NCBI RefSeq assembly: GCF_900143685.1
Contig: NZ_LT671675.1
Location: 1,481,985 to 1,545,984, forward strand
Direction of reading: 5' to 3'
Source of the DNA: Parolsenella massiliensis
GTDB lineage: Bacteria; Actinomycetota; Coriobacteriia; Coriobacteriales; Atopobiaceae
DNA length: 64,000 nucleotides
This document shows, one piece after another, positions 18,026 through 42,642 of this stretch (position 1 is the stretch's first letter; every line of letters starts with the position of its first letter). The notes beneath the pieces are model-generated. The model worked only from the letters and a program-made list of their open reading frames with translations, was not told the origin of the DNA and ran no database searches. The translations under genes and the position numbers were made by a program.

Positions 18026-18784
<759 letters not shown>

Positions 18785-18953
18785 AAAAAAAAAAAAAAAA
18801 CCTCTAATATAACTAGTCTCCTCAGTAACAGCTAACTTAACTCTCACAATAGCTTTCTCTCACAGCCATACCTAGATCACTCATAAATCAGCTGACAACC
18901 CCCAAGACCCCCCCCTCTCTATTCGTCGGCAGCGTCAGATGTGTATAGGAGAC

Positions 18954-18978
18954 GCCCCTCAGCCAGATCGAGTGGTAG
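18954..18978 (+). pseudogene. Severed C-terminal end of the ABC ATPase gene
   Basis: Directly after the adapter, CCC CTC AGC CAG ATC GAG followed by TGG TAG reads PLSQIEW and stop at 18976-18978. MacB-type ATPases often end in such an IEW tail before the permease gene. It completes the gene beginning at 18026 once the artefact is removed. A GC-rich hairpin and the permease start follow. Confidence 0.7.
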
Positions 18979-29628: not shown

Positions 29629-29685
29629 CGCCCCACCGCGCCTCCCTAGCCCTATGCTTGAGAAAACCTCAAGGAGGGGGCACAA

Positions 29686-32600
29686 ATGGACGATGAGAGC
29701 GCAGCCAAGCTGCTCGCCTACATAGACGCGCTGCTCGAGGACCCAGACCACGCGGAGCTCGACGCAAGCGAGCTTCCGGGCAACCTTCGCCAGCTGGGAG
29801 AGCGCCTCTCCTACCTGGGCTCGTGCGTGCAGGAGGGCCGCGTCTTTGCCGAGGACCTCGCCCGCGGCAACCTCGAGGCCATAAGCTCACAGTACACGAA
29901 CCACGCCAACCCCCTCATCCCCAGCCTCGAGGACGTGCGCAAGAGCCTCGCGCAGTTCCTGTCCCTGGGCACGAGCTTCGTCGAGGCAGACAAGGCCGCC
30001 CAGTTCGAGGGCCAGGGCGAGTACATCGCCATGCTCAACCGCATGATCGGCGAGGTCCAGCGCCGCCACACCGAGCTCGAGCACAGCGCCAACACCGACC
30101 CGCTCACCGGCGTGGGCAACCGCAGGCTCTACGAGCGCACCATGGAGGCCCTGTGGGAGAAGGGCGAGCCGTTCACGGTGGCCTTCATCGACATCGACCA
30201 CCTCAAGCGCTGCAACGACCACTATGGCCACGAGGAGGGCAACCGCTACATCCTGCAGACGAGCCTCATGCTCAAGCTGCGCCGCAAGCGGGACGAGGAG
30301 CTCTTTCGCATCGGCGGCGACGAGTTCGTCTACGTGTCCGAGACGGACTCCGAGCACGAGCTTGCCAAGCGGCTCGAGCAGTGCCGCGAGCAGCTCATCG
30401 CGCAGTCGCGCCAGGAGGGGCGCATGGTCTACTCGTTCAGCTTCGGGTGCTCGCACGTCGACCCCAAGGCCGGCGACGACAGCCATCAGATGGTCACGGA
30501 CGCCGACAAGAAGATGTACCGCTACAAGCTCACGCATCGCGTCGCCCCCAGCCAGGGCGAGGCCGCCGAGGACAAGCCGGGCATCGACATCGACGAGCGC
30601 ATCTTCGAGGCGCTCGCCATGGCCTCGCCGGGCCGCTACTTCTTCGTGTGCGACATCGACAACAATGAGTCGCTGTGGTCGAGCAACGCCATCCGCGACT
30701 TCAATCTGCCCAGCCCCCACATGAGCCATGCCGGCGACATCTGGCTCGGGCGCATCCACCCAGACGACCGCCAGGGCTACGAGGACGAGATATCGCGCCT
30801 GCTCGCCGGAAAGACCCACCACCACGCCATGCGGTACCGCGCGCTCGACGCCCGTGGCCAGTACGTCATCTGCGAGTGCCGCGGCTACAGGCTCGACGCC
30901 GAGGAGGGCAAGCCGGCGCTGTTCGTGGGCACCATCGTGAACCGCAGCATCGCCGAGAACATCGACCCGGCCACGGGGCTCGGCGACATCCACGGCCTCG
31001 TCATCTCCGTCGGCAGGGCCCGGCACCTGCAGCGCCCCACGGGCATCATCGGCATCAAGGTCGTGGGCCTCTCGCAGATAAACGCCACGCACGGCTACGA
31101 GACGGGAGACCAGGTGCTCGCAGCGATCGCCGAGCGCATCGTGTCGGCCACCCGCGGGCGCATGACGGCGTTTCGCTCGCGCGGCACCCAGTTCGTCCTC
31201 ATCGGCAAGGACCTGAGCGAGCAGGACACCTGGGAGCTCTACCACCTCGTGAGAAACGTCATGAAAGCGCCGTTCAACATCGGCGGGGAGACGTTCTCGC
31301 TCGAGTCGGGCGTGGCCTGGGTGCACTACGACGAGGTGTCCTCGCAGCCCTTCTCCATCCTGTCTGACCTGAGCCGCCGCGTGCGCTTGTCGCTCAGGGA
31401 GGGCGTGGCGGCCCTGCCCGCCCCCACGACGACGAGCGACGAGCACGTCAACTCGCTCACGGGCCTCAGGAGCGGCTCTGCCCTGCTCAGGCTCGCGAGC
31501 AGGCACAACGCCTCGGCACCCGCCGGCATCCACTGCCTCGTCTCCATAGACCTGGGCAACATGCGCCTGTTCAACGAGTGGTACGGCCACGACGCCGGCG
31601 ACGCCCTGCTCGCCGAGGTGGGGCAGCTGCTCGCCAAGATCGAGGACGAGGGCTCTGCGCTCGCAGGCTACTGGGGCCAGGACGACTTCTGCCTCTACGC
31701 GCCGTTCGACCGCGTCCTCATCGACGACATCTACGGCCGCATGAGGCAGGTCGTGGCCAGGCGCGACGACTCGGTGGGCTTCTCGCCCTCGTTCGGCGTG
31801 CTGCCCCTCGACTACCATCACGAGGTCACGATCGACGACTACTCGAGAGCGATGTTCGCGAACAAGGAGTCGAAGGGCGACTTCAAGAACAGGATCTCGT
31901 TCTTCGAGCCGCTGAGCTACGAGCAGAAGAGCCAGGAGCACAGGCTGCTCTCGAGCTTCCAGTACGCCATCTCGGACGGCGGCATCTGCTTCGTCCTGCA
32001 GCCCCAGTGCGACCTCACGACCGGCAAGGTCGTGGGTGCCGAGGCCCTCGTGCGCTGGGCGAAGAAGGACGGCGAGCGCATCTCCCCGGCCGAGTTCATC
32101 CCCGTGCTCGAGAGGAACGGCTTCATCGTCACGCTCGACAAGCGCATCTGGACGCTCGTGGCCCGCTGGCTGCACGATGCCATCGAGCGCGGGCTCGTCC
32201 CCGTGCCCGTCTCGATCAACGTCTCGCGCGTCGACATCCTCGCGTTCGACGTGCCCGACTTCCTGGGGCGCCTGCTCACCGAGTTTGACCTGGCACCGCG
32301 CCTTCTCGAGGTCGAGATCACCGAGACGGCCTACATGCAGGACCAGGGGATGATGAGCGAGGTCGTGGGGCGCCTGCGCGCCATGGGCATGACCGTCCTC
32401 ATGGACGACTTTGGCACGGGCCACTCCTCACTGAGCATGCTCGGCGGCGTCAACGTGGACGTCATCAAGCTCGACCGCCAGTTCCTCCCCACGGCCGGCA
32501 TGGCGCAGGGCCGCGTCAACAGGGACGAGAGCATCCTGGCCTCGATGGTGGGCATGGCCCACGCGCTCGACCTGCCCATGATCGTCGAGGGCGTCGAGAC

Positions 32601-32799
32601 GAGGGAGCAGGCGGGGCTCGTGGGAGACCTGGGCGCGCGCTACGTTCAGGGCTTCTGGTGCTACCGCCCCATGCCCGTGCAGGAGTTCGAGGAGATCCTC
32701 GCAAGCCCCGACCTCGTGGACCTGGGCGGCCTCGTCTCGCCGAGCGAGCGCGGAGTGTATACCCCCCCCCGAGCAACTAAGGACTCGGGCAGGGCATAG
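29686..32799 (+). CDS. Cyclic-di-GMP enzyme with GGDEF, PAS, two degenerate GGDEF and EAL domains
   Basis: A 1037-residue soluble protein for cyclic-di-GMP synthesis and breakdown. Order: an alpha-helical N-terminus (1-130), a first GGDEF domain with an intact RIGGDEF site near residue 208, a PAS-like domain (about 300-430), a second GGDEF-like domain with a ruined site (RSRGTQF), a third with YWGQDDF (588-745) and an EAL domain (750-1010). The EAL domain keeps AEALVRW, ETAYMQ, DDFGTGHSSL, IKLDRQF and VEGVETREQ, so phosphodiesterase activity is likely. GGAGGGGG precedes the ATG. It is convergent, 12 bp apart, with the XrtG operon, which it may regulate. Confidence 0.92.
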   Translation: MDDESAAKLLAYIDALLEDPDHAELDASELPGNLRQLGERLSYLGSCVQEGRVFAEDLARGNLEAISSQYTNHANPLIPSLEDVRKSLAQFLSLGTSFVEADKAAQFEGQGEYIAMLNRMIGEVQRRHTELEHSANTDPLTGVGNRRLYERTMEALWEKGEPFTVAFIDIDHLKRCNDHYGHEEGNRYILQTSLMLKLRRKRDEELFRIGGDEFVYVSETDSEHELAKRLEQCREQLIAQSRQEGRMVYSFSFGCSHVDPKAGDDSHQMVTDADKKMYRYKLTHRVAPSQGEAAEDKPGIDIDERIFEALAMASPGRYFFVCDIDNNESLWSSNAIRDFNLPSPHMSHAGDIWLGRIHPDDRQGYEDEISRLLAGKTHHHAMRYRALDARGQYVICECRGYRLDAEEGKPALFVGTIVNRSIAENIDPATGLGDIHGLVISVGRARHLQRPTGIIGIKVVGLSQINATHGYETGDQVLAAIAERIVSATRGRMTAFRSRGTQFVLIGKDLSEQDTWELYHLVRNVMKAPFNIGGETFSLESGVAWVHYDEVSSQPFSILSDLSRRVRLSLREGVAALPAPTTTSDEHVNSLTGLRSGSALLRLASRHNASAPAGIHCLVSIDLGNMRLFNEWYGHDAGDALLAEVGQLLAKIEDEGSALAGYWGQDDFCLYAPFDRVLIDDIYGRMRQVVARRDDSVGFSPSFGVLPLDYHHEVTIDDYSRAMFANKESKGDFKNRISFFEPLSYEQKSQEHRLLSSFQYAISDGGICFVLQPQCDLTTGKVVGAEALVRWAKKDGERISPAEFIPVLERNGFIVTLDKRIWTLVARWLHDAIERGLVPVPVSINVSRVDILAFDVPDFLGRLLTEFDLAPRLLEVEITETAYMQDQGMMSEVVGRLRAMGMTVLMDDFGTGHSSLSMLGGVNVDVIKLDRQFLPTAGMAQGRVNRDESILASMVGMAHALDLPMIVEGVETREQAGLVGDLGARYVQGFWCYRPMPVQEFEEILASPDLVDLGGLVSPSERGVYTPPRATKDSGRA
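32762..32770. repeat. Run of nine C near the 3' end of the cyclic-di-GMP gene
   Basis: Nine consecutive C encode the Pro-Pro of the C-terminal tail (VYTPPRATK). One extra C would bring an early TAA, ending the protein 8 residues sooner; one fewer C would extend it past the current stop. The change would fall outside the EAL domain, so an effect on activity is doubtful. It may also be a base-calling error spot. Confidence 0.6.
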
Positions 32800-32811
32800 G
32801 GGGCAGCTCGG

Positions 32812-35262
32812 CTAGCTGCGGATACGCTTGTGCCCGCGACGGGCAAGGATGCCAAGAAACGCCACGAGCCCGGCGACGCCGGCCACACTCACGGCAACGC
32901 CGGTGGCAAGCCAAGGGCGTCGCAGCGGAATCGTCGTGGTGCCGGCGCCCACGTGCAGAAGGCCATCCCGCTCCCACGCGCCCTCGGTGGGCGCAAAGTC
33001 GTCCTGCCAGGCAAGTGTGGTGTCCACGTCGTCCTCGTCCGCCGTGACGGTGAGGGCGTCCGTACCCCACTGGGCCGAGACGGGCACGAGCGTGCGCTCG
33101 GGCACGGCGGCTGGATCGAGCGACAGCGAGTTCGCGAGCAGCGCCGCGATGCCGGCGTCTCCCGTCACAGCCTCGAAGTAGGTGAGGTTGAGACCCACGA
33201 ACACGACGTTGCCGCCGCACACCGAGCCGTAGAAGCCAAGGCTTCTGCCCTCCTCGTCCACCGAGCCCCAGACGTCATCGAGGCCGTTCAGGTAGACCGT
33301 CTGCCACTGCTCGTGGCCCGCGGGGAACAGCGAGCAGCTCAGCTGACCCAGACGGGTCGTGAGCTCGGGAAAGCCACCATGAAACGTGATGGGCTGCGCG
33401 CTCACGCCAAGGAAGGACGTCGTGGCCGCGTGCTCGTCTGCGGGCATGCCGTCGGCCATGATGACCACGCGCGTGCCCACGCTCGCCAGGCCGCGCACGA
33501 GCTCCTCGGCGCTCGCCTGGTCTGAGTAGGTGAAGCCGTCGAGGTAGACCACCTTGTAGGCGGAGAGCTCGCTCACCGTGTAGTCATCGAGGGACGCGTC
33601 GGTGGTCTCCTCGACGCTTGGGAACTGCAGCGCAATCTGGCCGGCGCCCGTGCCGATGGCGATGGCGTCGTAGCGCGACGTGACGCCGAATGCGCCGTCA
33701 ACGTCGCGATGGTAGAGGCGGTAGTCGCCGGCATCGTCCACGAGGGAATAGCCAGACTGGCCGGCGGCCGAGTCGATGCGCGTGACCACGTTTGCGCTCT
33801 GGTCCTGGACGAGCGAGGTGCGCACGATCACCGAGTCGCAGCCCAGCTCTAGGCTGCGGTCGAACAGGTAGCCAAAGCGGCCCTCCTCCAACGCACGGTC
33901 GAGCTGCTCGTAGTTCTTGGCCACGGCCGCGCGTGTGCTCGCACCCTCGGCGATGGCCACGGGATCCTCGAAGCCAGACGCGAGAAACGCGCTCTCGGCG
34001 TCCAGGCCACCCTCGTCGACGAGCGCCAGGCGCTGTTCCGTGACGGCGCGGGCCTGGTCGATGAGCGTCTCTGAGGCATGGCGCTCCAGGCGCTCGGAGG
34101 TCGATGCTCCGTTGTGCGCGCCACAGAGCAGCTGCCACGACGGAGCCGCGTCAACGGCCAGTAGCACGAGCGCAAGCGCCAGCAGCGGGGTGCGCAGCGT
34201 TCTCCAGCGCAGCAGGCCCAAGAGGACCAGCGCCAGGGCCACCGAGACGAGCCCCAGCGACCCCGCGCGAGACAGGCACGTGAGCGCGCCCACCGCCGGC
34301 TGGACCGTGGCCGCCGTGAGCGCCACGAGCACGGCCGCGGCCACGAAGGCGGGGCGTGCGGCGCGGCGCGAGCACAGGATGCCGAACACGATGAGCACGG
34401 AGGCGGCCGCTCCCAGGAAGATGCCACCCACAGATCCCAGCCAGCCCTGCGAGGCAAGCGTGGCGCCCAGGCCCTGGACGTCCACCTGGACCATGTTGGC
34501 AAGGCCACCGCCGGCCGCGAAGGGAACGAGCCAGAAGCCGCAGGCCGCGCATCCCAGAAGGCACGCGAGGATGGCTTGCGCGCCGCGGGCCCAGCACCCC
34601 TGCGAGACGCCCCGGCACGCGACGTAGGCAAGCACGCCGATGCCCGTGAGCGAGGCCGCGCCCACGTCCGTGAGCACGAGCAGTGCGCTCGTCACGAACA
34701 GGGCAGCCAGGGAGCACCTGCCGCCTCGCTCGAGGTGCGCGTCGAGTGCGGCCACGAGCCAGGGCAGAAGCGCGAGGCCAAGGCTTCGCGCGAGGTCGCC
34801 CTCGACGAACAGCGCCGTGAGGTTGGCGGGGAGCAAAAACCATAGCGCACCGGCGCAGAGTGCCAGCCAGCGGCGGCCGCGGCGCCAGCCCGCGCAGAGC
34901 CACCCCAGGGCGCCCACCAGGTAGACGAGGCCGCAGAAGACCACGAACCCCGAGGCGGCTCCTCCCACTGCGGCCTCGCACGCGGCGACGGCATAGGCAA
35001 AGACGGGGCCGCAGAAGCGCAGGAGCTGGGCGCCGTTGTACCACAGCGGCTCCACGAGCGGCCACGCGTCGCCGCGCGACAGCCCGCCGAGCAGCGACTC
35101 GCCCGCGAACAGGTGCGAGAAGGTGTCGGCGCCGGAGCATGCCGTGCCGCTCGTGGCCACAAGCCACATGACAAGCGCCGCAGCCGCCGCCTGGGCCAGG
35201 CACGCCAGCGCGAGCGCCCCGTGGCCCCGCCTCGCCGCGAAGCCGGCGTCAGATAGAGCCAT
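32812..35262 (-). CDS. PTPS-related polytopic membrane protein of the XrtG operon
   Basis: An 816-residue protein. About 12 hydrophobic helices fill residues 1-420 (ALACLAQAAAAALVMWLVAT, LLALALVLLAVDAAP), in the style of GT-C glycosyltransferases and of the family called 6-pyruvoyl-tetrahydropterin synthase-related membrane proteins. The stretch ADTFSHLFAGESLLGG, followed by PLWYNGAQLLRFCGPVFAYA, matches that family. Residues 420-780 are extracytoplasmic, and a final helix plus RRGHKRIRS anchors the C-terminus. The ATG at 35262 overlaps the preceding stop by one base (TAATG), so it is translationally coupled. It is the last gene of the operon. Role: probably polymer assembly or export. Confidence 0.75.
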   Translation of the reverse strand: MALSDAGFAARRGHGALALACLAQAAAAALVMWLVATSGTACSGADTFSHLFAGESLLGGLSRGDAWPLVEPLWYNGAQLLRFCGPVFAYAVAACEAAVGGAASGFVVFCGLVYLVGALGWLCAGWRRGRRWLALCAGALWFLLPANLTALFVEGDLARSLGLALLPWLVAALDAHLERGGRCSLAALFVTSALLVLTDVGAASLTGIGVLAYVACRGVSQGCWARGAQAILACLLGCAACGFWLVPFAAGGGLANMVQVDVQGLGATLASQGWLGSVGGIFLGAAASVLIVFGILCSRRAARPAFVAAAVLVALTAATVQPAVGALTCLSRAGSLGLVSVALALVLLGLLRWRTLRTPLLALALVLLAVDAAPSWQLLCGAHNGASTSERLERHASETLIDQARAVTEQRLALVDEGGLDAESAFLASGFEDPVAIAEGASTRAAVAKNYEQLDRALEEGRFGYLFDRSLELGCDSVIVRTSLVQDQSANVVTRIDSAAGQSGYSLVDDAGDYRLYHRDVDGAFGVTSRYDAIAIGTGAGQIALQFPSVEETTDASLDDYTVSELSAYKVVYLDGFTYSDQASAEELVRGLASVGTRVVIMADGMPADEHAATTSFLGVSAQPITFHGGFPELTTRLGQLSCSLFPAGHEQWQTVYLNGLDDVWGSVDEEGRSLGFYGSVCGGNVVFVGLNLTYFEAVTGDAGIAALLANSLSLDPAAVPERTLVPVSAQWGTDALTVTADEDDVDTTLAWQDDFAPTEGAWERDGLLHVGAGTTTIPLRRPWLATGVAVSVAGVAGLVAFLGILARRGHKRIRS

Positions 35263-36422
35263 TACGCGCGCTCCTCGTCGTCCGTCTCGGGACCGTAGGC
35301 CAGAAGGTAGCTGCGCGCCGGGGTCTCGGAGCCCTCGAACTCCACGAGCCGCGCGTCCATCCCGGCCGCCGCGGCGCGGACCTTCTCGCCCAGCACCTCG
35401 GTGAGGCTCTCGAGCGTGGGCACTATGGCGTCGAAGGGCTCGCACTCGTTGACCACACGGTTCTGGTAGGGCTCGAACACGGCCCCGATGGCGCGCTCGT
35501 ATTCCGCGAACGGCTTGGGATCGGTGGTGCCGGCCACGGCCACCTTGGCGCTGAACTGCCAGGTGTGGGGGTGAACCTCGCCGCGCTTGCCGTCAAAGCT
35601 CACGTAGTGGCTCGCGTTGAGATAGGTCTTGAAGCAGTAGGTGCGCCTCACCTCGTGTGCCATGGGGTCGTCTCCCTCGTCGTCGTTGCCAGCCTTGCCG
35701 TTGATGCCCAGAAGCTCGGAGAGCCTCTGGGTGCCCAGGCGCTCGTTCGTCTCGCGCAGGCGTGCCGCGTCACGTTCGGCTGCCTCGGCGCGGTCGAGCA
35801 GGCGGTCGCCGCGCAGCCCCATGACCACGCACGCGCCCACCATGAGCACGAGCGCGGCACCGATGGCCACGCCCAGCCCCACACGGGCGCTCAGGTAGGC
35901 GTTCTGGTCGATGATGACGTGGCGCGCCGTGAGCAGGCACAGCGACACCTTGGCGCCGCCCCGCTCCACGACCGTGCCCGAAGCGATGAAGTCTCGTCCG
36001 TCCACCTGGATGAGCGCGTGGGAGACGCCGTTCTCGGAGAGGTTGGAGACGAAGCTCCTTGCGGCGTCCGCGTCGTAGTAGGTCGAGTCCGAGAAGCCCC
36101 GATAGCGGTTCGTGTCGTCCACGTCCTTCACGAAGACGAGCGAGCCGTCCTCGGCCACCGTCCAGTACTTGGACGACGACGGGCCGATGGCGCCGAGAAG
36201 CGCCTCGACGTCATCGTCGCTGCCGCGCGAGACCTGCTCGGCCACGACGCGCACGTAGTCGTCCTGCTGGTTGGCGAACGTCTCGATGAGGCCGTCCTCG
36301 TAGTGGGAAAGCTGCCAGTAGCAGAAGGCCGCGAGCGCCACCGCCACGATGCAGGCGGCGGCCGTCACGACGCCGGTGCGAAGGCTCTGGAGCCTGCCGG
36401 CGCCGATGCTAGTCTTGGTCAC
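35262..36422 (-). CDS. Membrane protein with C-terminal 6-pyruvoyl-tetrahydropterin synthase-like domain
   Basis: A 386-residue protein: N-terminal helix (about 18-38), an extracytoplasmic sensor-like domain (40-165), a second helix (about 180-205), a short coiled coil and a cytoplasmic PTPS/QueD-like domain (about 255-375). The three zinc-ligand His residues are kept (NASHYV and VHPHTW). The catalytic Cys that normally lies between them is missing (SFDGKRGEVH), so pterin synthesis is unlikely. The ESLTEVLGE helix matches the family. This domain is a named companion of exosortase G. It overlaps the glycosyltransferase gene by 14 bases. Confidence 0.8.
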   Translation of the reverse strand: MTKTSIGAGRLQSLRTGVVTAAACIVAVALAAFCYWQLSHYEDGLIETFANQQDDYVRVVAEQVSRGSDDDVEALLGAIGPSSSKYWTVAEDGSLVFVKDVDDTNRYRGFSDSTYYDADAARSFVSNLSENGVSHALIQVDGRDFIASGTVVERGGAKVSLCLLTARHVIIDQNAYLSARVGLGVAIGAALVLMVGACVVMGLRGDRLLDRAEAAERDAARLRETNERLGTQRLSELLGINGKAGNDDEGDDPMAHEVRRTYCFKTYLNASHYVSFDGKRGEVHPHTWQFSAKVAVAGTTDPKPFAEYERAIGAVFEPYQNRVVNECEPFDAIVPTLESLTEVLGEKVRAAAAGMDARLVEFEGSETPARSYLLAYGPETDDEERA

Positions 36423-37815
36423 GGGTTGGTTCCTCCTCGGGATAGTTCACCAGGTCGCGCAGGCGCGCCACGACGCCCGTCGCGCGCGAGAAGTCCGAGC
36501 GCACGACGCTCGCGAAGGCGCCGCGCTCCTCCGAAAGGGTCCGCGTCTTCCAGGCCCCCGACGTGCCGATGCTGTTGATGACGCCAGCCAGGCGGATGAA
36601 GAAGACCACGAAGTTGAACGCCGGCAGCAGCGGGACCACCCACCACAGGCCGAGCGCGTAGCGGCGCAGGCGCGGCAGCCGGCGCAGAAACGACGCCACG
36701 GCCAGCAGGTAGAGGAAGCCGCAGACGACGTAGAGCACGTAGACCGCCGCCATGGCGCCGAGCACCACCGCGCCCGAGTAGCCCACGGCCAGAAGGCAGA
36801 TGAGCGCCACGTACCAGATCATACGCGGGAAGGCGAAGGTGTGGTCGTACAGCAGCGTGCTCACGTTGACGTCGGTGAGGGCGTGGCGCAGCGAGAGGTG
36901 CTCTCCCCCAAACTGGTGGGCCACCTCAAGGCTGCCGCGCTGCCAGCGCTGGCGCTGCGTGTAGAGCTTGTCGACGCCCTCGATGGGATCCACGAAGAAG
37001 ATGGCGTCCTCGCACACGTGCAGGCGCTGGCGCTGGTTGTAGCGCATCTGGAACGTGATCTGGGTGTCCTCGCAGATGGTGTCTGCGTTGTAGAGCCACG
37101 ACGTGAGGATGGCGCTGCTCCGGAAGGCCGTGAACGCGCCCGAGAGTGTGTAGACGCGGTCCACCTCGCTGGCGTAGTTTCGCCCGGCGAGAAACGCCTG
37201 CGCGTACTCCATGAACTCCAGGCGGCGCAGCAGCCGCGAGGGGCCGGGCTTGTAGGCCTCCACGAGGTCGGGCTCGACCATGATGGCGCCCGTGGCCACG
37301 TTCACGGACGGGTCCGCCTCGAAGCGGCGCACGAGGTTGGCAAGCGCCTCGCGCTCGAGCACGCCGTCGGAGTCCACGTGCACGATGTACTTGCCCTGAC
37401 TGTTGTACAGGGCGAGGTTGAGCGCGTTGGACTTGCCCTGGGCGGCGTCGAGCCACTGCATGGCAAGCTCGGGATGGGCCGCCTGGCAGCGCGAGAAGGC
37501 CGCGAACGAGTCGTCCGAGCTCGCGTTGTTCACGAGGAACACGTTGATCTTGTCGGCGGGATAGGTGCCGTTCGCAATCGAGTCCACGCAGGCCTCGAAC
37601 GTGTCGGCCGAGTTGTAGACCGGCACGATGACCGTGACGTCGGGGAAGATGATGGGGTCGGCCGGGCGGCGTGCCTCTCGCACGCGGCGGCGCACGAGCA
37701 AAGCCACGCTGCCGATGGCGGGCACGATCTCCATGATGAGCGGGATGATGATCCAGGCCGCCCAGAAGATGAAGCTCGAGGCGAGGCGGGCCAGCACGCT
37801 ACTCACCGCGCTCAT
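36409..37815 (-). CDS. Processive family-2 glycosyltransferase, exosortase G-associated
   Basis: A 468-residue membrane glycosyltransferase like cellulose or poly-GlcNAc synthases. Two N-terminal helices, a GT2 catalytic domain (TVIVPVYNSADTFEACVDSI; DSDG; EDTQITFQMRY) and the processive QRQRWQRG motif are followed by four to five C-terminal helices. All key residues for UDP-sugar binding and processive synthesis are present. A specific family of such enzymes accompanies XrtG in Gram-positive genomes. The start overlaps the xrtG end by 17 bases and the stop overlaps the next gene by 14, so the four genes are coupled. The sugar polymer is unknown. Confidence 0.88.
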   Translation of the reverse strand: MSAVSSVLARLASSFIFWAAWIIIPLIMEIVPAIGSVALLVRRRVREARRPADPIIFPDVTVIVPVYNSADTFEACVDSIANGTYPADKINVFLVNNASSDDSFAAFSRCQAAHPELAMQWLDAAQGKSNALNLALYNSQGKYIVHVDSDGVLEREALANLVRRFEADPSVNVATGAIMVEPDLVEAYKPGPSRLLRRLEFMEYAQAFLAGRNYASEVDRVYTLSGAFTAFRSSAILTSWLYNADTICEDTQITFQMRYNQRQRLHVCEDAIFFVDPIEGVDKLYTQRQRWQRGSLEVAHQFGGEHLSLRHALTDVNVSTLLYDHTFAFPRMIWYVALICLLAVGYSGAVVLGAMAAVYVLYVVCGFLYLLAVASFLRRLPRLRRYALGLWWVVPLLPAFNFVVFFIRLAGVINSIGTSGAWKTRTLSEERGAFASVVRSDFSRATGVVARLRDLVNYPEEEPTRDQD

Positions 37816-38395
37816 AGGAGAACCTCCCCACCCTCATGCGCACGACCTGCGGCTTAGTGAAGACGTAGAAGTACAGCCACACCGTGAGCGCATAGAAGAC
37901 GAGGCGCCCCACGAGCGAGTGGGCCACGTAGTAGACGCCCGGGCCCATGAAGTGGATGAGCTCGCAGATGAGGACGATGCGGATGGCGTTGGCGAGCAGG
38001 ATGAACAGCGTGCCCGCGATGCCCACGATCACGCGCTCGCTCCTGTTGTAGACCTGGAAGAACGACAGCAGCGAGACGAAGGCCATGATCTCGATGATGC
38101 CCGAGCACTCGAAGTCGATCTTGAGCGTGATGGGGCCCGACGCCGAGTCAACGAACAGCACGCCGTAGCGGAAGAACGCCTCGAACGTGTGCGTGAGGCT
38201 GCCCACGATGCCCGAGACGCCGGCCACCACCTGTGCGAGCGGCTGGGTGGCCCAGGGGCGCACGAAGATCATGAGCAGCACGAACAGCCCGAGCGACCCC
38301 ACGGCAAAGCGCCAGAACGCCAGGTTGGCGCGCGAGAGCACATGCAGGACGTAGAGCCACACGAGCGCCGCGGCCGCGCCTATCGCATAGACCAT
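37799..38395 (-). CDS. xrtG: Exosortase family protein XrtG
   Basis: A 198-residue polytopic membrane protein with the exosortase active-site signature: Cys97 in DFECSGIIE, Arg139 in LANAIRI and His159 in VAHSLVGR, each at or near a membrane helix. Exosortases cleave and transfer proteins carrying a C-terminal sorting signal; XrtG is the Gram-positive type found with a GT2 enzyme and PTPS-related proteins, exactly the set here. GGGGAGC lies before the ATG. The likely substrate is the gene just upstream, 10 bp away. Confidence 0.88.
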   Translation of the reverse strand: MVYAIGAAAALVWLYVLHVLSRANLAFWRFAVGSLGLFVLLMIFVRPWATQPLAQVVAGVSGIVGSLTHTFEAFFRYGVLFVDSASGPITLKIDFECSGIIEIMAFVSLLSFFQVYNRSERVIVGIAGTLFILLANAIRIVLICELIHFMGPGVYYVAHSLVGRLVFYALTVWLYFYVFTKPQVVRMRVGRFSYERGE

Positions 38396-38405
38396 GGACG
38401 CTCCC

Positions 38406-40153
38406 CTAGCGCCGCGCGCGACGACGGTGGGCGTAGGTGCCGCCCACGGCCGCCAGGCACAGGCCCACGCCCAGGATGGGCATCGTGGAGGTGCCGGCCG
38501 TGGTGACCCACTCCTGGCCGATGCGCCCGTACTGCGCCGAGAACTTCGTGATGCTGCTGGGGTCGATGGACGTGTCCTCCTTGGCCTGGCCCCTGTTGGC
38601 GTGCAGGTGCGCCGCGAGCGTGGGGATGTCGATGACGTACTCCATCTCGTCCTTGTCGACGCCTACGGTCACCATGGCGCGGCCGTAGATGACGTCGTCG
38701 TCCTTGAGGTCGTTGATGTTGGTGGAGGTGCCGTTCGTGGTGGTGGAGGCGAGGTAGAACTCGTAGGTGCCCGGCGCCAGGCCCGACGTCTGCGGGTTCC
38801 AGTTGATGTTGCCGCTGGCGTCCACCGCGATGAAGCGCGGCGTGAGCATGAGGTTCTCGTCGTCGTTGAGCTTGAGGGACACGGCGCTCGTGAACTCGCC
38901 GCCCGCCTCGCCAAGGTGCGCGGGCATGGAGGTCACGACGTGGCCGTAGAGCTTGTCGGTGTCCGCGTACAGGGCGCCACGGGCGTCCACGACCGTCTCG
39001 GACGTGCCGGAACCGGCGTACTGGATTGTCGTGTGGGGGTAGTAGTCCCAGTCGTCGTACTTGCCGTCGTAGGTAATGCCGTTGAACGTGTGGTCGCCGT
39101 CATCTGTGGGGTGGAGGTTGGCGACATTCGTGATGATGGGATCTACCTGGTAGAAGCCAAGGCCGATGGTCTTGGAGTAGAAGCCGAGCGCCGAGGTGGG
39201 GATGGCTACCTCCCACTTGAAGGGCTTCTGGGCCCAGGCGGTGCTGTTGGCGGCGATGGAGGCGCCGTCGATGCCCCTGACCTCGCCCGGGGCGCTCCTC
39301 AGGTCGATGAGCGTCTGGTTGCCCAGATCGGTCGTGATGGCAAACTGGCCGTTGCCACTGGGGCCGGCACCAGTCATGGAGCGCGGGTTGTCGTCATCGG
39401 ACTCGAGGTAGAGGTAGACCCAGTCGCCGTCCCAGACCATGGCCATCTTGTTGACATGGCCCCAGCCAACGGTGGCGTCGGTGTCCACCTTGGCAACGCC
39501 ATTCCAGTCGGAGAAGTCACCGTCGATGGTGATGCCGGTGTAGGCGGCGCCGGTGTTGGAGCCGTCGGTGTCGGTGGTCTCGGGCGTTGCGGGGGGGCGT
39601 CGGTGCCGGAGTTGTCACCGGCGTCGGGGGTCGAGGGCGTCTCGGGAGTGTCGGGCGTCTCGGGCGTTGTCGGGGTCTCGGGCTCGGTGGAGGCGCCGCC
39701 CATCTCGGCGCTCGTCTTGGTGGAGCCGCAGTACGAGGCCGAGAACGACTTGCCGCCAAAGTAGCTGGCGGGCACGGTCACCGTAATCGTGTTGCCATCG
39801 ATGGAGGTCGAGGCACCCGGGATGTCCTGCCAGTAGCCACCCTTGACCTCGGAGCAGTTCCAGGTGAGGATGAGCGCGTTCGCATTGCCCTGCGTGTCGT
39901 CGTCATAGGAGATGGCGATGGTGTTGTTGCCGCTGCCGACCGAGGTGACCTCGCCGGCGGCGTTGATGGTGAAGACGTAGCTCGAACCGTCAAAGGTGGC
40001 GTCCCAGCTCGAGACGGTGGCGTTGGACGAGGCCATGGCGATGGCCTCGCGGGTGATGTAGGGAACCGGCGCCAGGCCCAGCGTGAGCGCCATGGCGACG
40101 ACGGCACCCCTGCGGGCGAACACGTGCAGACGATCTTTGTTCAAACGAGACAT
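38406..40153 (-). CDS. Putative XrtG substrate, secreted two-repeat surface protein, out of frame at a G7 run
   Basis: The N-terminal frame starts with ATG at 40153 (AAAGGCCAGGC upstream): signal peptide (RRGAVVAMALTLGLAPV), a beta-rich domain and a PETPTTPETPDTPETPSTP linker. At 39591-39597 (seven C on the coding strand) the frame is lost. One extra C restores it, giving ATPETTDTDGSN and the rest: about 582 residues in all. The second half has ITIDGDFSDWNG and GITYDGKYDDWDY units and ends in TSTMPILGVGLCLAAVGGTY plus HRRRARR, a Gly, hydrophobic, Arg sorting tail without LPXTG. It is first in the XrtG operon. As assembled it would be truncated: phase-off, or an indel error. Confidence 0.78.
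39591..39597. repeat. G7 homopolymer at the frame break of the XrtG substrate gene
   Basis: Seven G on the plus strand (seven C in the gene). With eight the two halves of the surface protein join in one frame; with seven they do not. The site lies in the Pro/Thr linker between two folded domains, a place where switching gives clean truncation. Confidence 0.85.
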
Positions 40154-40194
40154 GCCTGGCCTTTCACCGCATGTAGTAAGCGTCCAAAGAAATA

Positions 40195-40224
40195 AGTATA
40201 GGCCCCCAGCTCGCTTTTGCATAA
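40195..40224 (-). promoter_or_regulatory. Candidate promoter of the XrtG operon
   Basis: On the minus strand TTATGC, an 18-base spacer and TATACT lie 42-71 bp before the substrate gene ATG. The -10 box matches five of six bases of the consensus. The IS3 element inserted at 40313 is about 90 bp further upstream and might disturb regulator sites. Confidence 0.45.
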
Positions 40225-40282
40225 ATTTCGACAAGCCTGAATACGGGCTTTGAGCAGTGGCATGGTGCGATAACCGCCGAGT

Positions 40283-40297
40283 GCTGCAAATCAGACA
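40283..40297. repeat. Left arm of the palindrome flanking the IS3 element
   Basis: GCTGCAAATCAGACA is the inverted partner (14 of 15) of 41625-41639, TGTCTGAATTGCAGC. Each arm is 15 bases from the IS edge (40298-40312 and 41610-41624), so the element sits in the exact centre of a pre-existing palindrome or has unusual extended ends. Confidence 0.7.
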
Positions 40298-40312
40298 CTT
40301 TGGCCCCCGTTT

Positions 40313-41609
40313 GGGGGTGCGGACCAAAAGTTGGACCACTGGGTGGTCCGGACTGGAGGTCCAGATGCACGACAGGGAGACCGTCGAGCTGTTCCTGCTC
40401 GGCCGGGAGGAGGGGATGTCCGTCCGGGCCGCGGCGGACCTCGCGGGCGTGACGAGGGGCACCGCGGGAGACTGGGCGAGCGGCAGGCTGCCGCGCAGCT
40501 ACACGGGCGCGCCGGCACCGCGTAGAATCCGTGGCGAGGACACCCGACGGAGGGAGCGCCCCATGGCCGAGCCCAGGTCGATCTACGAGCCGCCCAGGAG
40601 CGGGCCGCTGGCCGGCCTCACCCCCGACCAGATAGAGAACCTGCTGCTCAGGGCGGTGTTGGCCGACCTAAAAGCGGTCGGGTGGGACCCGGCTTCGATC
40701 TCGAACAGGAGCAAGTGCGAGCTCGGCGAGAGATTGAGGAGGGCGACCGCCCTGCCCCTCCGCTCGATCACCGGTTTCTTGAGGATATCGAAGAGCTCCT
40801 ATGAGTACCACCGCGCCAGGCTCGGCCGGGACCGCGACGCCGACATACGCGGCGCGGTGAGGGACGTCTTCGGGGAGGGCCGCGGCGCCTGGGGCTACCG
40901 GACGGTCTGGGCCCACCTGCGTCGCCGCGGCGTCCTCTGCAGCGAGAAGCGGGTGCGGAGGGTGATGCGCGAGGAGGGCCTGCGCCCCGTCTACGCGCGC
41001 CGGCGCCGCAGGGGCTACAGCTCCTACGCCGGCGAGGTCTCCAAGGCCCCTCCCAACCTCGTGGGGAGGAACTTCCGGGCCCCGGCGCCCAACCGCCTGT
41101 GGCTGACCGACATCACCGAGTTCCGGCTGCCGTCCGGGGCGAAGGTCTACCTCAGCGCCGTCGTGGGCTGCTTCGACGGCATGCCCGTCGGCTGGTCGGC
41201 CGGCCGGCACCCGGACAAGGCGCTCGCCAACTCCAGCCTCCTCGCGGCGCTCGAGACGAGGCCGGAGGGCGCCCCCACGCTCGTCCACTCCGACCGCGGC
41301 GGCCACTACCGCTGGGAGGAGTGGATAGGCATCTGCGACGCCGCCGGCCTGGTCAGGAGCATGTCGGCCAAGGGCTGCAGCCCCGACAACGCCGCCTGCG
41401 AGGGCTTCTTCGGCAGGCTCAAGAACGAGTTCTTCCACTGGCGTGACTGGAGGGGCGTCTCGGCGGAGGAGTTCATGGCCAGGCTCGAGGGGTACCTCGT
41501 GTACTACCGGGACCGAAGGATCAAGAGGTCGCTCGGGTGGCTCAGCCCGATGGAGTACCGGCACAAGCTTGGATACGCCTAGGCGGTCCAAGAAATTGTC
41601 CGCACCCCC
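40313..41609 (+). mobile_element. IS3-family insertion sequence
   Basis: A 1297-bp element. Terminal inverted repeats begin GGGGGTGCGGAC at both ends (40313 and, inverted, 41609), with TTGGACC as an inner block; 20 of 25 bases match. TTT flanks both sides (40310-40312, 41610-41612), a possible 3-bp target duplication as usual for IS3. It carries one transposase gene and appears intact. No second copy is in the window. Confidence 0.85.
40365..41582 (+). CDS. IS3-family transposase, single unshifted reading frame
   Basis: A 405-residue transposase. The N-terminus holds a helix-turn-helix (EGMSVRAAADLAGVTRGTAG), equivalent to OrfA. An HTH_21-type segment (YRTVWAHLRRRGVLCSEKRV) and the rve integrase core follow. 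The DDE residues are WLTDITEF, HSDRGGHY and CEGFFGRLKNEFF, with exactly 35 residues between the second Asp and the Glu. Most IS3 members make OrfAB by -1 frameshifting; here both parts are in one frame. An internal ATG at 40563 with GGAGGGAG upstream could give an OrfB-like product alone. GGAGG precedes the chosen ATG. Confidence 0.9.
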   Translation: MHDRETVELFLLGREEGMSVRAAADLAGVTRGTAGDWASGRLPRSYTGAPAPRRIRGEDTRRRERPMAEPRSIYEPPRSGPLAGLTPDQIENLLLRAVLADLKAVGWDPASISNRSKCELGERLRRATALPLRSITGFLRISKSSYEYHRARLGRDRDADIRGAVRDVFGEGRGAWGYRTVWAHLRRRGVLCSEKRVRRVMREEGLRPVYARRRRRGYSSYAGEVSKAPPNLVGRNFRAPAPNRLWLTDITEFRLPSGAKVYLSAVVGCFDGMPVGWSAGRHPDKALANSSLLAALETRPEGAPTLVHSDRGGHYRWEEWIGICDAAGLVRSMSAKGCSPDNAACEGFFGRLKNEFFHWRDWRGVSAEEFMARLEGYLVYYRDRRIKRSLGWLSPMEYRHKLGYA

Positions 41610-41624
41610 TTTGGACCCGATACC

Positions 41625-41639
41625 TGTCTGAATTGCAGC
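41625..41639. repeat. Right arm of the palindrome flanking the IS3 element
   Basis: TGTCTGAATTGCAGC is the inverted partner of 40283-40297 and lies 15 bases outside the right end of the IS. Confidence 0.7.
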
Positions 41640-41661
41640 GCTCGCGAGCGACGTCTATTTC

Positions 41662-42138
41662 CTAGGCGAGCAGCGCCAGGGCCTCCGACGGCGTGAGGGC
41701 CGGCACCACCGAGTGGCGGCGGAAGTCCTCGTCGTTCGTGACGATGTAGTCTGCCTTGGCACGCTTGGCAGCGGCCATGATCAGGCAATCCTCGAAGTCC
41801 GGATGGACCCTCTGCAGCTTCTCCGCCATCCAGACGTCCGAGACGTCGAGCGCCACGGGCGTTGCGCTCGCAACCATGCCCGACACGCATCCCGAGGCAA
41901 TGGAGCGCGCCGTCTCGACATCGCCCTGGCTCAGATGGCCCAGGGCCTGTCGGGCCTTCCTCTTGAGGCCATTTGCCACGAGGTAGTAGACGTCCTTTGC
42001 GCTGCTCACCGAAAAGAGCAGGTCCACGGACCCCCTCTTTGCGAGGTCGAGAACCGCCCGCGAAGACGGGGAGGTGGCCCGTCCTCCATCGAAGTTGTCG
42101 ATCCACACGTTCGTGTCTACGAGGATCCTCGCGCTCAT
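41662..42138 (-). CDS. PIN-domain toxin (VapC-like ribonuclease)
   Basis: A 158-residue PIN nuclease. The N-terminal acidic residue lies in ILVDTNVWIDNF (Asp8), and the C-terminal acidic cluster in DFEDCLIMAAAKRAKADYIV, then TNDEDF. Such toxins cleave tRNA or rRNA as Mg2+-dependent ribonucleases and are blocked by a cognate antitoxin. The start overlaps the antitoxin stop (ATGA), a classic coupled pair. The partner is of the DinJ/RelB type rather than a VapB type. It lies just outside the IS3 element, the only accessory genes of this gap. Confidence 0.85.
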   Translation of the reverse strand: MSARILVDTNVWIDNFDGGRATSPSSRAVLDLAKRGSVDLLFSVSSAKDVYYLVANGLKRKARQALGHLSQGDVETARSIASGCVSGMVASATPVALDVSDVWMAEKLQRVHPDFEDCLIMAAAKRAKADYIVTNDEDFRRHSVVPALTPSEALALLA

Positions 42139-42545
42139 CGGTCACCACCGTCTTCGGGGTAGTAGCGCTCCATCAGGTAGTCCGCATAGATGTCCTTGCA
42201 GCTCTTATCCTCATCGAACAGGGGCTCCCCTTGGGGAAGGCCGAGATGCTCGCGAAATCCATCGACTGCGGCGCGCGCATGGTCGAGCGCCGAGATGCCG
42301 GAGTCGCGCTCGCCGGCACGGTGCGGGTACAGAAGCTCCCTAACCTTGCTTGGGTTGTCAGCATCATCTGCGACGAGCTGATAGAAGGCACGAATCGCCT
42401 CCGAGGGAGTGAGGCCGGCCTGGGCCAGCGCATAGTCTCCCTCGCGCTTGAGCTCCGCGTCGATCCGAACGTTCATCTGAACGCTTCTGCCGCTGCGGGC
42501 ACGCTCGGCGGCCCTTGGTTTCTCAGCTGCTGCAACCGCTGCCAT
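42135..42545 (-). CDS. RelB/DinJ-type ribbon-helix-helix antitoxin
   Basis: A 136-residue antitoxin. The core QMNVRIDAELKREGDYALAQ then AGLTPSEAIRAFYQ is the ribbon-helix-helix DNA-binding domain of DinJ/RelB proteins. The C-terminal half, ending SCKDIYADYLMERYYPEDGG, should wrap the toxin. It probably neutralises the PIN toxin encoded next and represses its own promoter through the palindrome at 42566-42579. The ATG at 42545 has GGGGAGG upstream; starting at the internal MNVRID would drop 23 residues of unusual basic leader. Confidence 0.82.
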   Translation of the reverse strand: MAAVAAAEKPRAAERARSGRSVQMNVRIDAELKREGDYALAQAGLTPSEAIRAFYQLVADDADNPSKVRELLYPHRAGERDSGISALDHARAAVDGFREHLGLPQGEPLFDEDKSCKDIYADYLMERYYPEDGGDR

Positions 42546-42565
42546 TCCAGCCTCCCCTAGACGTG

Positions 42566-42579
42566 GCTATACGTATAGC
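42566..42579. promoter_or_regulatory. Operator palindrome of the toxin-antitoxin operon
   Basis: GCTATACGTATAGC is a perfect 14-bp palindrome 20 bp before the antitoxin ATG. On the minus strand a TAGAAT -10-like box lies directly upstream. Autoregulation by ribbon-helix-helix antitoxins commonly uses such sites; binding is inferred. Confidence 0.6.
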
Positions 42580-42596
42580 ATTCTAGCATGCGGAGC

Positions 42597-42626
42597 AAAA
42601 AGGGCGCACCCGGATGGATGCGCCCC
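42597..42626 (-). terminator. Intrinsic terminator of the murT-gatD operon
   Basis: On the minus strand GGGGCGCATCCATCCGGGTG then CGCCC forms a stem-loop followed by TTTTT. It lies 16 bp after the gatD stop, next to the antitoxin promoter. Confidence 0.85.
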
Positions 42627-42642
42627 GCAGACGAACGGTCCC

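Follow-up and report, generated by a model that had tools for sequence, protein, structure and literature searches.

The window analysed here, a 64,000-nucleotide stretch of the Parolsenella massiliensis genome, contains five co-oriented minus-strand genes running from 40153 to 32812, which in reading order encode a substrate, exosortase G (XrtG), a glycosyltransferase, a PTPS protein and a PTPS-related protein:

39374-40153, minus strand: first half of the substrate gene, from the ATG at 40153-40151, with signal peptide, N-terminal domain, Pro/Thr/Glu linker and out-of-frame tail
39591-39597, minus strand: run of seven C (C7; G7 on the plus strand), the site of the frame switch (sequence; codon-likelihood scan)
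38406-39590, minus strand: second half of the substrate gene in the other frame, with ITIDGDFSDW beta-sandwich repeats, AGTSTMP sorting motif, C-terminal transmembrane helix and basic tail (Firmicu-CTERM)
37799-38395, minus strand: XrtG, 198 aa, with Cys97, Arg139 and His159 (TIGR03110, 194 bits; cut-off 102.75)
36409-37815, minus strand: processive XrtG-associated GT2 glycosyltransferase with QRQRW motif (TIGR03111, 565 bits; cut-off 364; alignment)
35262-36422, minus strand: membrane protein with a C-terminal 6-pyruvoyl-tetrahydropterin synthase-related domain (TIGR03112, 87.5 bits; cut-off 69.4; PF01242, 37.9 bits)
32812-35262, minus strand: PTPS_related large membrane protein, start taken as ATG 35262 (PF10131, 353 bits; cut-off 26.4)

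The substrate stop and the XrtG start are 10 bp apart, the XrtG and glycosyltransferase genes overlap by 17 bp, the glycosyltransferase and PTPS genes by 14 bp, and the last two genes by 1 bp if the final one starts at ATG 35262 and not at the upstream GTG. An initial annotation, made from the letters of the sequence, had given the same order, strand and spacing (10 bp, then overlaps of 1 to 17 bases), and its assignment of exosortase G and its companions to known families is borne out by the above-cut-off scores. The Cys97, Arg139 and His159 that it listed for XrtG are present, and all 81 XrtG proteins aligned share them. As judged from its sequence, the locus is thus a complete exosortase G surface-display operon with the substrate gene first: XrtG scores above the TIGR03110 cut-off and has the Cys-Arg-His set, the TIGR03111 glycosyltransferase and PTPS-type partners adjoin it, and the adjacent substrate is of the Firmicu-CTERM type, recognised by TIGR04145 on its second half only. 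Signal peptide and sorting tail do not share a single open frame, being split at the C7 run. Upstream of the substrate start we read an SD-like GAAAGG at 40165-40160 and a TATACT at 40200-40195 (minus strand); a consensus promoter scan found no full sigma-70 match there.

Substrate frame 1 (start 40153) ends at a stop at 39376-39374. Frame 2 has an upstream stop at 39617, after which it continues to 38406, the second half of the gene being open for ~395 codons. A codon-likelihood scan for a single frame switch, which is blind to the position of the C7 run, has its optimum at 39595-39591 and lies within 2 nats of it over 39601-39581. The linker run consists of exactly seven C (minus strand 39597-39591), which confirms the break where the initial annotation had placed it. 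The chance that break and run coincide by accident is small, because only ~0.0005 G/C runs of at least seven are expected in a 21-base interval (43 such runs in 2.0 Mb, 0.021 per kb). The second half scores 88.6 bits against TIGR04145 (cut-off 50) and is 28-50% identical to 31 relatives; its AlphaFold2 model has a pLDDT of 87.5 and a terminal helix at 342-365, and, searched against PDB folds, it had no significant match (E above 0.005). A separate start for this half, which the initial annotation had named as a case that would speak against switching, is unlikely, since frame 2 opens only past the signal peptide, and the earliest start listed for it, GTG 39488, falls within a conserved domain and has no signal peptide.

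Considered as a slipped-strand locus, the substrate gene has its frame break at a simple repeat and sits in a permissive repair background; its run of seven falls short of the length of known switches (at least 8 G/C). Profile searches placed no MutS, MutL or NucS above cut-off in this genome or in the same-genus genome G059. Control genomes responded to the searches, 11 of 14 being positive for MutS1, and MutL gave sub-cut-off ATPase matches only. The 2.0 Mb contain 1983 G/C runs of length 5, 131 of length 6, 15 of length 7 and 28 of at least 8, the last against ~2 from geometric decay; 20 are left once 8 in artefact inserts are dropped. Genome-wide, the lengths of G/C runs are thus bimodally distributed. 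About half of the length-7 runs correspond to the amount expected from background decay, which speaks against switching at a run of seven. In an 864-kb sample, 62 runs of length 6 were seen against a first-order expectation of 363, and 7 of length 7 against 94; runs of 6-7 are so far below expectation that short G/C runs must be selected against. Across the family, runs of at least 9 occur in 75 of 81 genomes; the P. massiliensis genome, with 17 such runs (several of them artefact), is at the high end of the 81, and one other genome has 38. That all long G/C runs are contingency loci was rejected, because six lie in a Nextera artefact and two in a degraded adapter-like insert. A local frame-switch score computed around each run was also discarded, its background being too high (6.6% at G/C runs of 5).

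Other genes of this genome are split at long runs. A C5 DNA methyltransferase gene, a candidate for phase variation, is divided by a C8 run at genome position 1730266 (L151:3421-4418): one frame covers positions 2-59 of the PF00145 profile, the other positions 47-323. For a PARCEL-repeat (DUF285) surface protein at 753775 (L215:11945-13900), the signal peptide lies in the other frame across a C10 run. The C7 at 58846 and the G11 at 366260 look like frame changes by eye and are weaker than these two splits. Long runs are also found upstream of large pilin/LPXTG-featured proteins at 138940, 583457 and 1191133. A 2306-aa FctA/SpaA/LPXTG protein is closely preceded by a G11 and a G8 (1191133-1191193, L237), and the G12 at 583457 (L207) lies upstream of a 1519-aa fimbrial-type protein without an obvious in-frame signal peptide. 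The G11 at 366260 lies at the C-terminal end of a hexapeptide acetyltransferase in an exopolysaccharide cluster (L136, 366260-367396), in which one 702-aa frame combines a GT4-type and a GT2-type glycosyltransferase, linked at a G8 (367389). HAD hydrolase genes have further long runs at what appear to be their ribosome-binding sites; runs of the same kind occur in G059, and they may be ordinary.

The operon lies in accessory DNA next to an insertion sequence:

29632-42639, no strand assigned: ~13-kb segment missing from the same-genus genome G059, which has ~500 bp there (synteny breakpoints)
40313-41609, plus strand: IS3-family element with TTT flanking repeats at 40310-40312 and 41610-41612 (NF033516, 277.8 bits)

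G059 is collinear on both sides of the segment (89-94% identical), which holds a GGDEF/EAL gene, the XrtG operon, the IS3 copy and a PIN-domain-like toxin/antitoxin pair, the PIN/antitoxin label having been assigned by eye. The IS3 element lies 160 bp upstream of the substrate start, and a second copy, 84% identical, lies elsewhere in the genome. It interrupts an inverted repeat (40283-40297, GCTGCAAATCAGACA; 41625-41639, TGTCTGAATTGCAGC), the left side of which has 88% matches at two other genome sites (1966564 and 249103); it may be a small repeated element. Next to the operon, the convergent GGDEF/EAL gene (1037 aa) has a C9 run in its C-terminal tail (window 32762-32770). GGDEF/EAL neighbours as a rule for XrtG were rejected, being present at only 11 of 82 loci; an XrtG operon on a Lactococcus plasmid (L028) also has GGDEF and EAL genes next to it, and most XrtG loci do not.

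Among 140 same-family genomes, XrtG exceeds its cut-off in the P. massiliensis genome only. Its relatives are mostly from Lachnospiraceae and Oscillospiraceae, plus two short actinobacterial contigs, and an exact-pattern search found no sister copy in viral contigs. The 80 XrtG loci examined came from genome contigs (78) and plasmid records (two). Of these, 10 lack a directly upstream substrate and 3 are truncated at a contig end. Each of the remaining 67, among them loci that a simple script had marked odd, carries a complete upstream substrate whose N-terminus is hydrophobic and whose frame is unbroken (67/67). The break is therefore specific to the P. massiliensis genome. G/C runs of at least six are rare in the relatives' substrate genes, and one relative (L050) has a G7 yet is intact. 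Comparing the tract between related genomes, as the initial annotation had suggested, thus gave no relative with a broken substrate, and no comparable switching tract among the substrates compared. The intact relatives would fit a fixed, real frameshift, by which the substrate became a recent pseudogene in a horizontally variable operon and the enzymes were left behind; so would the accessory segment with its nearby IS copy, and a run length at the low end for switching. We consider such decay unlikely, if far from negligible: apart from the C7 break, the ~395 codons downstream and the four genes that follow are free of lesions, and the run is revertible because MutSL and NucS are missing.

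Homopolymers are the commonest site of assembly error, and this assembly is imperfectly curated, with a Nextera adapter and poly-G dark-cycle tail at window 18691-18955, absent from G059, and a degraded insert elsewhere. The substrate gene might accordingly be simply intact and the true run of another length. We regard a consensus error of this kind as rather improbable, because 639 kb aligned to G059 (89% identical) contain no recognisable break of an own gene at a homopolymer. The 57 isolated gaps not divisible by three in this alignment are balanced between both genomes, 13 of them falling inside predicted ORFs, and no adapter remnant was found near the XrtG operon. DNA alignment served as the control instead of a naive protein-versus-genome frameshift screen, which had returned ~50 apparent breaks per genome, mostly antisense ORFs; a filter on the codon position of changes removed nearly all of them. 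The artefact at 18691-18955 reads C10-a-C24-g-C22-a-C8-a-C15-ttctctttt-A18 then TCGTCGGCAGCGTCAGATGTGTATAgGAGACg, with the Nextera adapter at 18937-18955, and sits between an ABC ATPase gene and its permease gene. The degraded adapter-like insert of ~110 bases (C10, C8) lies in a zinc-ribbon protein gene at genome positions 1581032-1581083 (L143), is flanked by a short duplication and is absent from G059. A lone near-match to the mosaic end occurs at 512306.

That the C7 allele yields the full protein through programmed -1 ribosomal frameshifting, or through transcriptional slippage, at C CCC CCG is very improbable, for although the register of the run fits a heptamer of the X XXY YYZ type, there is no downstream RNA structure (z -0.68), no relative uses such a signal, and C-rich slippery sites are poor for frameshifting.

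The best-supported reading is slipped-strand switching, as the initial annotation proposed: the substrate would be an ON/OFF gene that is OFF in the sequence given because of the length of its C7 run. The missing MutS, MutL and NucS, the excess of long runs, the other split genes and the Bifidobacterium breve precedent argue for it; a run of seven, shorter than documented switches, argues against. We give this reading an even chance and do not rate it higher, because the run is only seven long and is known from a single assembled sequence. Two further points count against switching: the XrtG pathway has never been shown to switch in the Firmicutes relatives, which makes it a less economical home for such a mechanism, and some of the long runs are artefactual, in an assembly with one clear and one degraded adapter insert. 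If the reading is correct, replication slippage would alter C7 by one base at appreciable frequency. OFF cells would make a truncated secreted fragment and ON cells the full protein, which its AGTSTMP motif and transmembrane tail predict to be cleavable by XrtG. The OFF state would leave ~970 untranslated bases between the early stop and XrtG; transcriptional polarity and lost translational coupling would therefore be expected to lower XrtG and the glycosyltransferase, and with them the whole operon, as proposed for B. breve.

The absence of MutS, MutL and NucS would readily explain how short G/C runs could act as switches in the P. massiliensis genome; it also predicts which further genes there switch. 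More tentatively, and with somewhat less than an even chance, the XrtG operon may be one member of a wider poly-G/C contingency set (surface proteins, a DNA methyltransferase and exopolysaccharide genes) in a coriobacterial-type actinobacterium lacking MutSL and NucS. The initial annotation held ON/OFF switching of the substrate to be undescribed, and we too found no report joining XrtG with phase variation among the open-access papers searched, of which one (PMC12854382) mentions XrtG. Should the run vary, phase variation would be known for an exosortase/Firmicu-CTERM substrate for the first time.

The closest parallel is the sortase-dependent pilus clusters bbr_0113-0115 and bbr_1889-1886 of B. 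breve UCC2003, in which the signal peptide and LPXTG motif of the first gene lie in two ORFs across a G-tract (PMC9187656). As here, the host is an actinobacterial gut commensal and the first gene of a surface-display cluster is split across a G/C run. Bifidobacterium tracts measure 8-13 across strains and species, against seven here, and maximum depth sequencing was used to measure slippage in B. breve, where a polar effect on genes further downstream (transpeptidase) was proposed (PMC9187656), whereas the present run is known from one assembled sequence. Anchoring also differs, being by sortase/LPXTG in B. breve and by exosortase/Firmicu-CTERM here. If true, our reading would add a second actinobacterial class, and a second chemistry of anchoring, to the G-tract switching known from Bifidobacterium. 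Compared with XrtG/Firmicu-CTERM systems elsewhere (TIGR03110, TIGR04145, TIGR03111, TIGR03112), where the substrate is one intact ORF, the substrate of P. massiliensis is split. The system of Lachnospira eligens ATCC 27750 has the same order (substrate, XrtG, glycosyltransferase, PTPS, PTPS-related) and is 60% identical over the glycosyltransferase; unlike in that and other XrtG systems, the PTPS domain of the present operon is fused to a membrane protein. The same system in Lactiplantibacillus plantarum, reported as over-expressed in a strain comparison, has two associated glycosyltransferases and no described switching (PMC12854382).
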